Shown: piece by piece, positions 50,821-53,561 of the stretch
How the letters are laid out: each line of letters begins with the position of its first letter
How positions within the stretch are numbered: the first letter of the stretch is position 1
Assembly: GCF_014284255.1 (NCBI RefSeq)
Contig: NZ_JACOFV010000004.1
Span: forward strand, 124,001-188,000
Direction: 5' to 3'
Source of the DNA: Cognatundibacterium jejuense
GTDB taxonomy: Bacteria > Pseudomonadota > Gammaproteobacteria > Burkholderiales > Burkholderiaceae_D
DNA length: 64,000 nt
Notes under the pieces: model-generated
What the model was told of the DNA's origin: nothing
What the model saw: the letters and a program-made list of their open reading frames with translations, nothing else
Database searches by the model: none
Made by a program: the position numbers and the translations under genes

Positions 50821-51417
50821 ATGAAGCGCTTGCCTCTTTTGTGTAGCTTTTTAGCTTTTATTTTGTTGTGCGTGTCTTTGAGTTTTTGGGGGATACGGGT
50901 ATTTAAGCCTGCTGATCGCAGTGTCGCGCGACCAGCGCTGGATAATAATATTGAACCCGGAGCAGGGCAGTGGGGTGGTATTTTCGGAGGTGCTCAGGCT
51001 GATCAGGCTATTGCCAGTAATTACGAGCTTAAAGGGGTAATTATCGCCAAGAAATCGAATGAAAGTCTGGCGATCGTTGTTGCCAATGGAAAGCCAGCGC
51101 AAACTATTCCTCTCAATGCTGAAATTGCTCCAGGTATTATTCTTAAAGAGGTGGCGGATAAATATGTCATGATCTCGGAGTCCGGTGTGATGCGACGTGT
51201 TTCCTTGCCGGAAAACGCGATAATTAATGTGATTCCAGGCTCTGTAAGAGTGCAACCGGGTGATATGCCACCAGTCTCACCGATTGCACCCATTGCTTTT
51301 CCTGCTCGCTCGAACCAAATTACCCCTTCACCTGGGAATGCGCCAGTTCAACCCATGATTAGCGCTGGATTCCCTACTGCTTCACTTCCATCGATGGGTG
51401 GCGGAACCGAAAAATGA
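50821..51417 (+). CDS. gspC: Type II secretion protein GspC, short form without PDZ
   Basis: GspC connects the inner-membrane platform to the secretin. This 198-residue protein has the N-terminal membrane span (about 6-26) and the HR domain (about 60-145; NYELKGVIIAKKSNESLAIV). After that a Pro-rich tail ends the protein and there is no PDZ or coiled-coil domain. Placing gspC last in the operon, after gspF, is unusual compared with the common C-D-E order. Identification rests on the HR domain and position. Confidence 0.85.
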   Translation: MKRLPLLCSFLAFILLCVSLSFWGIRVFKPADRSVARPALDNNIEPGAGQWGGIFGGAQADQAIASNYELKGVIIAKKSNESLAIVVANGKPAQTIPLNAEIAPGIILKEVADKYVMISESGVMRRVSLPENAIINVIPGSVRVQPGDMPPVSPIAPIAFPARSNQITPSPGNAPVQPMISAGFPTASLPSMGGGTEK

Positions 51418-52232
51418 AGGGCAGTACAGCGTTTCTACCTATTGAAATACAATTAGCGCTGAGAACAGTGCACGAATCCTGGCGCGATCCTGTTGAACTT
51501 GGGTTGGCTGCAATGCACGCCGCTGACCCCACATATTTTGAGCAACTCTGTTCGAATGGATTTTTGCCGACCGACGGAAGATTATTTGCGGCATTCGAGC
51601 TACCAATCGAGGATGTTAGATATGTATTGATTGGCGAGGGGCCATATCCGCGCGAGGATAGCGCTACTGGTGTTTGTTTCATGGACGGTGCAGTGAAACA
51701 AATCTGGTCCCCTGATGGGGCTGGCTTGTCTAAAAAAGTTAATCGTGCAACTTCTTTGCGTAACTTTATAAAAATGTTATTGGTTGCTGATGGTCGGCTT
51801 GATGAAAGTGTCACGAGTGGTGAAATAATGCGTGGTATTGCTCAAACTGCATTGGCACCAGATTCCGGTTTTATTCAGACATTGCCTGAATTGCAGCAAA
51901 ATCTACATAAAAATGGTTTTCTTCTATTAAATGCTTCACTGGTTTTCCGTACCTCTGTGGCACCCGCCAGGGATGGTAAATCATGGCAGATTTTCTTGCA
52001 GACTATATTTGCAGCATTACACTCTCATTCTGTTTCATTTGGAAAAGTGCCATCCTTGATTTTGTGGGGTAAGATTGCTGAGCAACTCCAAAGAATTCAT
52101 GAGACTTCGTTATTTCCGCAAATTGTGGCTGAACATCCTTACAACCTGAGTTTTATTAAAAATCGCACGATGCAGAATTTTTTCAGGCCTATGCAATTGC
52201 TAAAAAGTTGCTCAAAGGAAAAATTTTGTTAG
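51414..52232 (+). CDS. UNG-superfamily protein lacking the catalytic Asp
   Basis: The 272-residue protein aligns with uracil-DNA glycosylase motifs. GEGPYP (74-79) replaces the family's GQDPYH, which removes the catalytic Asp (G76 in its place). The uracil-contacting Asn (N173, LLLNASLVF) and the active-site His (H241, EHPYNLSF) remain, as does LILWG. Standard base excision is therefore unlikely by the usual mechanism. It overlaps gspC by ATGA and so probably shares its transcript, although no functional link with secretion is known. It may bind DNA or uracil, or have a changed chemistry. I see no decay in the frame. Confidence 0.7.
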   Translation: MKGSTAFLPIEIQLALRTVHESWRDPVELGLAAMHAADPTYFEQLCSNGFLPTDGRLFAAFELPIEDVRYVLIGEGPYPREDSATGVCFMDGAVKQIWSPDGAGLSKKVNRATSLRNFIKMLLVADGRLDESVTSGEIMRGIAQTALAPDSGFIQTLPELQQNLHKNGFLLLNASLVFRTSVAPARDGKSWQIFLQTIFAALHSHSVSFGKVPSLILWGKIAEQLQRIHETSLFPQIVAEHPYNLSFIKNRTMQNFFRPMQLLKSCSKEKFC

Positions 52233-52331
52233 AAATGGTAAGCTTTTAGTGGCTTAGTGTGGGGCTTTGTAGAATAATTTGGCGTTAGTGTTTGCGTGAT
52301 TTCACCGGACAGATTTTTGCCTAAGTGGTTT

Positions 52332-53561
52332 ATGTTAAAAAAAATTGAAGTGACACAATTAAGAATCGGAATGTACCTCCATGAGCTATGTGGTTCGTGG
52401 ATAGATACGCCATTTTGGAAGAAATCCTTCGTTCTTGCTGATCCAAATGAATTGGCAGAAATTCAAAAGACAAAAATCCGTGAAGCATGGATAGATACCA
52501 GTAAGGGATTGGATGTCTATCAAGAACAGGAGTCGGGGACTGTTGAACCGGTTAAACCCGAAATTCCTGTGCCAAAACCAGTTGTTACACGTCAAACCGG
52601 ACCGGTCTCTATGGGTGATGAGCTAGGTCGCGCGTCAATGATTGTGAGTAAATCAAAAGAGGCTGTATTTTCCATGTTTAGCGAGGCACGCATGGGGAAA
52701 GCCGTTGATGTCGGTAATGCTAAGGAAATGGTTGAAGAGATCGCGGACTCAGTCATGCGTAATCCTGGTGCCTTGATTGGTCTGGCTCGTCTGAAGACCA
52801 AGGATGACTACACTTACATGCATTCGGTGGCCGTATGTGCTTTGATGGTCTCGCTGGCAAAGCAATTAGGATTAAGTGACGAGGAAACTCGCGAGGCAGG
52901 TCTGGCAGGATTGTTGCATGACATCGGTAAAATGATGATTCCTGCCGAGATTTTGAATAAACCCGGAAAATTAACCGACGATGAATTCGTTGCTGTGAAA
53001 GCGCATCCGGTGGCAGGTCACAAAATGTTATTAGAAGCAAAAGGCGTTAGCGCTGTGGCGCTTGATGTTTGTCTGCATCACCATGAAAAAATGGATGGAA
53101 CCGGATATCCTTATGGATTGCAGGGGGAGCAGATTAGCTTGTTGGCCAAAATGGGTGCGGTGTGTGATGTCTATGATGCGATTACCTCAAATCGACCGTA
53201 CAAGCAAGGCTGGTGCCCAGCGGAGTCAATACGCAAGATGGCCGAGTGGAGTAAAGGTCACTTCGACGAAAAGATATTTCAGGCCTTTGTGAAAAGTATT
53301 GGTATTTATCCGGTTGGGACCTTGGTTCGGTTGGAATCCGGGCGTTTAGGTGTCGTGGTTGAGCAGCAAGTTGGTAAGTCGCTGCTCGCCCCGAAAGTCA
53401 GGGTATTTTTTTCCATCAAATCAATGTCGTATATTGCGCCGGAGTTGCTTGATCTGGCGGGTCCTGGTTTGCAAGATAAGATAGCTAACCGTGAGGATGT
53501 GTCGAAATGGGGCTTAAAAGATATTAACCGCTATTGGTTGGGTGAAGCGGCGCCATTTTGA
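52332..53561 (+). CDS. HD-GYP domain phosphodiesterase with DUF3391
   Basis: The 409-residue protein has an N-terminal DUF3391 region (about 1-130; MLKKIEVTQLRIGMYLHEL) and an HD-GYP domain (about 140-330) with LLHDIGKMMIP, HHHEKMDGTGYP and the GYP-side motif SNRPYKQGW. This domain normally hydrolyses cyclic di-GMP. All visible metal-ligand motifs are intact. ATG 52332 was chosen by family N-terminus; a GTG at 52296 would extend it by 12 residues. A terminator follows the gene. Confidence 0.9.
   Translation: MLKKIEVTQLRIGMYLHELCGSWIDTPFWKKSFVLADPNELAEIQKTKIREAWIDTSKGLDVYQEQESGTVEPVKPEIPVPKPVVTRQTGPVSMGDELGRASMIVSKSKEAVFSMFSEARMGKAVDVGNAKEMVEEIADSVMRNPGALIGLARLKTKDDYTYMHSVAVCALMVSLAKQLGLSDEETREAGLAGLLHDIGKMMIPAEILNKPGKLTDDEFVAVKAHPVAGHKMLLEAKGVSAVALDVCLHHHEKMDGTGYPYGLQGEQISLLAKMGAVCDVYDAITSNRPYKQGWCPAESIRKMAEWSKGHFDEKIFQAFVKSIGIYPVGTLVRLESGRLGVVVEQQVGKSLLAPKVRVFFSIKSMSYIAPELLDLAGPGLQDKIANREDVSKWGLKDINRYWLGEAAPF

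Follow-up and report, generated by a model that had tools for sequence, protein, structure and literature searches.

The protein encoded directly behind gspC in the window (the whole stretch of 64,000 nucleotides that was analysed) is a homologue of the uracil-DNA glycosylases (UNGs), and it carries a Glu-Gly pair in motif A where family 1 UNGs have Gln-Asp. We consider it probable that this protein, whose predicted fold is that of the Nitratifractor-UNG-like 'unconventional family 1', acts as a uracil-DNA glycosylase and works without the motif-A aspartate. In the UNG lineage the Asp of GQDPY is usually regarded as essential. Since the motif-A Asp of family 1 UNGs is held to activate water, an UNG that lacks it could be very slow. 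The features of the gene and its surroundings are collected in Table 1.

Table 1. Positions of the putative glycosylase gene, its conserved motifs and its neighbours in the window.
Feature	Positions	Strand	Basis or remark
UNG-fold protein with Glu-Gly motif, 272 aa, ATG start	51414..52232	+	ORF, homology, fold
Motif A, GEGPYPR, residues 74-80	51633..51653	+	Alignment with 5x3g, conservation; E75-G76 in place of Gln-Asp (family 1 UNG)
NRATSLRN, residues 110-117	51741..51764	+	Alignments; conserved, common to Nitratifractor UNG
Motif 3, LLLNAS, residues 170-175	51921..51938	+	N173 invariant, presumed uracil-contacting Asn
Motif B, HPYNL, residues 241-245	52134..52148	+	H241 invariant, presumed catalytic His
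ATGA overlap of gspC stop and glycosylase start	51414..51417	+	ORF coordinates
gspC (type II secretion system protein C), upstream neighbour	50821..51417	+	PF11356; adjoins only in Undibacterium-type loci
HD-GYP-type protein (DUF3391 and HD_5), next gene downstream, likewise within the genus	52296..53561	+	Pfam

Homology, predicted fold and active-site residues

The window protein had no match in Pfam, even at an E-value of 1, and none to the family 4 model TIGR00758 (UDG_fam4) at E-values up to 1. The NCBIfam ung models matched it with 34-57 bits against cut-offs of 143-237; the top model gave 57.3 bits (cut-off 162) and the family 1 UNG model TIGR00628 gave 51.3 bits, below its cut-off of 185.75. 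Among the 36 members of the protein's alignment, 19 matched PF03167 at E ≤0.01. The closest solved relative was the UNG of Nitratifractor salsuginis (5x3g/5x3h; phmmer E 2.2e-46, residues 13-264), the two entries being, by their titles, the UNG and its Y81G mutant, and a profile comparison gave an E-value of 4.3e-74. An AlphaFold2 model made with 40 sequences showed the UNG fold with a pLDDT of 94.1 and a pTM of 0.90. For this model 5x3g came first both in Foldseek (E 1.6e-23) and in VIA-align (Z 31.5, rmsd 2.2 Å, 245 residues, 39% identity), followed by family 1 UNGs with Z-scores of 15.3-17.4, which made up the rest of the 50 best rows. It is confirmed that the window protein is an UNG homologue beyond chance. 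A sequence-only reading of this DNA had proposed an UNG fold; both the predicted model, with 5x3g as its top match, and the profile match bear this out, with the NCBIfam ung models staying below their cut-offs.

The Nitratifractor enzyme is reported by Li et al. (2017, FEBS J 284:4017) as an 'unconventional family 1 UNG'. UNGs of this type excise uracil and are resistant to Ugi. The Nitratifractor protein has in common with the window protein the full-length fold and the motifs NRATSLRN, PYPR and EHPYN, but differs in motif B, which is HPYNH instead of HPYNL, and in motif A, where its Gln-Asp faces the Glu-Gly of the window protein. The alignment with 5x3g sets GEGPYPR against GQDPYPR, so that two residues have changed, Gln to Glu and Asp to Gly. 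The sequence-only reading had named the loss of Asp, which stands, and had passed over the exchange next to it.

Despite this altered loop, which is also the difference from family 1 UNGs such as E. coli Ung (TIGR00628; GQDPY against GEGPY), the window protein shares with them the predicted fold and the four uracil-pocket residues Tyr, Phe, Asn and His. Motif B of family 1 UNGs is HPSPLS, where the window protein has HPYNLSFI. Ten residues (E75, P77, Y78, P79, R80, F89, D91, N173, H241 and N244) were invariant in all 36 rows of the alignment, in which identity to the window protein ranges from 37 to 66% among the other rows; the conservation of the presumed uracil-contacting Asn and active-site His, read earlier from the single sequence, thus holds throughout. 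The same ten were invariant in all 85 loci L076-L160, a set that includes the window itself (L156), and position 76 was Gly in 84 of these and Ser in one.

The doublet was recounted in a core running from motif A to HPYN with the doublet itself left unspecified. Such a core was present in 168 of 200 loci, giving 122 distinct clade cores, all of which carried either EG (95) or ES (27). The five matching loci that lacked it (L027, L028, L064, L066 and L069) were canonical ung loci. The search that yielded eighty of the loci used a pair of patterns, and as GE[SG]PYPR was spelled out in one of them, these eighty are biased towards the E motif; protein and profile searches, free of this bias, gave 39 EG loci including the window's own and all 27 ES cores, every one of them E-type. 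GESPYPR was found in all 23 same-class relatives outside the window's bacterial family (L004-L026), in three genomes of another class and on a Legionella plasmid, whose copy is annotated 'uracil-DNA glycosylase family protein'. When distant relatives were included, Q was paired with D or N, M once with D, and E with G or S; two actinobacterial copies had QN, and five other distant relatives had QD (four) or MD (one). The doublets QG, QS, ED and EN occurred neither among the 122 distinct cores nor among the distant relatives compared. These actinobacterial copies, relatives of the Nitratifractor UNG on Embleya and Nonomuraea megaplasmids (L164, L165), have GQNPYPR, with Asn for the catalytic Asp beside Gln, and an UNG relative on an Ilyobacter polytropus plasmid (L200) has GMDPYPQ, in which the Gln is changed. 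In the article text of open-licence PMC papers, figures excluded, the strings GESPYP, GEGPYP, GQDPYPR and GESPYPR were absent.

The Glu-Gly doublet, the missing motif-1 Asp and the catalytic His are common to the window protein and the family 4 enzymes (TIGR00758; Tth UDGa). However, family 4 UDGa has a 4Fe-4S cluster, whereas the 36-row alignment of the window protein contains no invariant or near-invariant Cys; an alignment of 40 rows from the bacterial family has one near-invariant Cys (C88), and such a cluster needs four. Family 4 UDGa also has Gly after GEGP, where the window protein has Tyr, and an Asn (N89 in Tth UDGa) for which the window clade has no invariant equivalent, Val182 of the window protein standing at that position, nine residues past N173. 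UdgX shares the Glu of motif A (GEQPG); it is described as family-4-like, with an R-loop His that links to DNA (PMC10359453).

Origin of the doublet and distribution of the gene

In an IQ-TREE phylogeny of 49 rows, the EG proteins formed a single clade with a support of 100/100. The E-type rows and Nitratifractor together made up a 41-row group (95/85) with an open backbone, and the canonical UNGs lay outside it. Four doublet changes suffice on this tree, the least possible number being three. Nitratifractor (QD, end branch 2.31) was placed within the E-type group at an open fork, so that its QD could be either ancestral or the outcome of a reversal. The simplest story would be the order QD, then ES, then EG, in which the placement of Nitratifractor is unsure.

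The ratio dN/dS was 0.07-0.21 in nine pairs, one of which (window and L030) is saturated at a dS of 2.9; the glycosylase gene is under purifying selection. Together with the invariant pocket residues, these values rule out decay into a pseudogene, and the loss of the Asp is therefore not a matter of decay.

At E 1e-5 the EG gene had a match in the window's bacterial family in 355 of 392 genomes, one match among the 355 (G375, 9.3e-6) being too weak for certainty; for good genomes the figure was 321 of 346. Within the genus it was present in 40 of 43 genomes. At the level of the class, 26 of 369 genomes gave a match, two of them canonical ung and one the window, while a profile search at E 1e-12 of the phylum sample matched 5 of 398 genomes including the window. 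Among 145 genomes sampled from the bacterial family, canonical ung scored above the cut-off of its model in 12; the model matched 127 of the 145 in all, the weaker matches including the EG gene itself. Nine of the 12 carry the EG gene too. The other three (G440, G474 and G501) gave no EG match; they look complete and have canonical ung. A replacement of the EG gene by canonical ung in these three is suggestive only, and many further genomes that lack the EG gene gave no canonical ung. The EG gene is likely to supply the UNG-type enzyme of the bacterial family, where canonical ung is rare.

A family 4 UDG scored above the cut-off in five of six tested genomes without the EG gene. The exception was G686, a genome of the same genus and 97% complete, in which neither an EG-type gene nor a match to the family 4 UDG model was found. 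A family 4 UDG is present in the window genome as well (L001; 167.5 bits, TIGR00758 cut-off 125.3), so that uracil repair there need not rely on the EG gene. A third protein of the UDG superfamily in this genome (L002) has the motif GQAPG and scored above the Pfam cut-off and below the cut-offs of all NCBIfam UDG models that it matched.

We also considered a phage origin and rejected it, as the window protein had no match among the phage records at E 1e-5 and the two phage relatives examined have GQDPYP. The protein's alignment likewise found no relative among the viral contigs. The Nitratifractor sequence matched 33 phage records at E 0.01, with 25-31% identity in the 20 rows listed; the two of these that were read, both crAss-like phages (L196, L197), encode UNG-like proteins, one of them annotated as hypothetical, with GQDPYPQ and not the Glu motif. 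PHROG 12143, of unknown function, matched the window protein at E 4.6e-8 and may be the group of these crAss-like phage proteins.

Gene neighbourhood and the type II secretion genes

The genes upstream of the putative glycosylase gene encode, by Pfam, the type II secretion proteins L, M, N, D, E, F and C. In this run of gsp genes gspC stands at the end; in many type II secretion operons it comes first. The four-base overlap noted in the sequence-only reading is real (ATGA, with gspC ending at 51417). The link to the secretion operon drawn from it fared less well: gspC lies upstream in all 29 other same-genus loci that were fetched (39 other genomes had a match), with the exact ATGA overlap in nine of them and a different spacing, or one beyond the resolution of the test, in the rest, but it is upstream in none of six loci from three other genera.

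A survey of the best 80 of 524 relatives gave a similar picture. The closest named relatives in it were from Undibacterium, to which the window genome most likely belongs. In 19 of the 80 the gene was linked to gspC; 16 of these loci are from Undibacterium and three from unnamed bins of Burkholderiales or Betaproteobacteria. In 36 others uvrB was the gene immediately before it, no more than 200 bases away, and 24 of the 36 also had iscR and iscS downstream. The remaining 25 loci, several of them on contigs that end early, had iscR and iscS downstream, and in two (L095, L144) uvrB was about 1 kb upstream. None of the 61 loci outside the gspC-linked group, in which the gene follows uvrB, precedes the isc genes or does both, had gspC upstream. 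The uvrB of the window genome is on a different contig, with a GGDEF-type gene (ORF as read here) after it, and in the 11 kb around this uvrB nothing matched the glycosylase. Same-class relatives outside the family had varied neighbours, for example ubiG, response regulators and rng-like genes (names read from the sequences), and the 21 loci compared, which include the Legionella plasmid and one locus of another class, had no stable partner gene, the commonest neighbour cluster occurring in eight.

The gspC context on the one hand and the uvrB and isc contexts on the other indicate that the gene has moved at least once within the bacterial family, and that outside the Undibacterium type it often stands beside a repair gene. 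The adjacency to uvrB suggests repair and shows no function. That the protein belongs to the type II secretion machinery, or is co-regulated with it, is very improbable: the overlap and the constant gspC neighbour within the genus speak for such a role, and both the larger number of relatives directly behind uvrB and the varied neighbours outside the family against it. A secretion function as the ancestral role was rejected, as gspC adjoins in one genus type only. On this evidence, the glycosylase gene is not part of secretion, and gspC is its context and no functional partner.

Proposed chemistry and alternative explanations

Family 4 offers a precedent for a glycosylase without the aspartate. 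These enzymes have Gly or Ala at the Asp position next to Glu (PMC5387724, PMC10359453) and are described as robust uracil glycosylases in PMC5387724. According to that paper, Tth UDGa, with the doublet E41-G42, excises uracil robustly, both the E41 main chain and the H155 side chain touch O2 of the uracil, and a water-positioning role is proposed for N89, which follows the uracil-binding Asn by nine residues. In the kinetic data given there, k2/Km drops by roughly three orders of magnitude with E41Q and by roughly two with G42D, whereas the double swap from EG to QD entails only a 5-fold loss (PMC5387724). As family 4 is active without the Asp and the same Glu-Gly pair occurs in the window clade, the loss of the Asp need not end activity. 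The alignments show a matching natural exchange of the doublet within the UNG lineage; by mutation the coupling is known from family 4 only.

The likeliest function of the protein is that of an ordinary uracil-DNA glycosylase with family-4-like, Asp-independent chemistry in a family-1-like fold, and we infer that it excises uracil. In the proposed mechanism, uracil would be flipped into the pocket and stacked on Phe89, Asn173 would read its N3 and O4, and Tyr78 would keep a 5-methyl group out of the pocket. O2 would be held by His241 and the Glu75 main chain, by which the leaving uracilate would be stabilised. The sugar would pass through an oxocarbenium-like state, and the attacking water would not be activated by any Asp. 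Glu75 and Gly76 would jointly set the geometry of the loop, like Glu41 and Gly42 of family 4 UDGa. The role of each residue, like a housekeeping role in base-excision repair, is what we infer. With no invariant equivalent of N89 in the alignment, the analogy with family 4 is incomplete.

The missing Asn, together with the loss of the family 1 water-activating residue in all 122 distinct clade cores, would fit a catalytically weak or dead member of the fold, serving as a sensor or reader by binding to DNA with uracil or damage, much as the sequence-only reading had thought possible. We regard this as unlikely. One would expect the leaving-group His to have been given up in a dead enzyme, but His241 is as unvarying as Asn173, Tyr78 and Phe89 in all 36 rows and all 85 loci. 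Family 4 enzymes are active without the Asp (PMC5387724), and UdgX, with GEQPG, is stated to excise uracil too (PMC10359453). The hint of a non-enzyme that had been taken from the loss of Asp alone does not survive the comparison with the active Glu-Gly and Glu-Ala enzymes of family 4 described in PMC5387724.

The altered loop could also admit a different base, such as hypoxanthine, xanthine, a 5-substituted uracil or a modified phage base. The superfamily has broad-specificity members elsewhere (passages of PMC8307549), and the window genome already has its family 4 UDG, both of which fit a glycosylase for another lesion. This is nevertheless quite improbable in our view, as the uracil-reading Asn and the stacking Phe are invariant, and so is Tyr78, whose family 1 equivalent separates uracil from thymine (PMC5387724). 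The conservation of Tyr78 argues for a pocket of predicted uracil size and not for one that takes hypoxanthine or xanthine.

Returning to an active uracil-DNA glycosylase as the preferred reading, we would tentatively suggest, with rather more reserve than for the activity itself, that a clade of the UNG lineage dropped the water-activating Asp, convergently took on the Glu-Gly/Ser doublet of family 4 and became the main UNG-type enzyme of the Oxalobacteraceae. If this is true, the clade would deserve a UDG family or subfamily of its own, and the motif-1 doublet, not the Asp alone, would be the catalytic unit that is exchanged in evolution. The clade has swapped Gln-Asp for the exact pair that was found to be coupled by family 4 mutagenesis in the data of PMC5387724. 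With the Asp usually regarded as essential seemingly given up and the other pocket residues retained, it may offer a natural test of the UDG mechanism.
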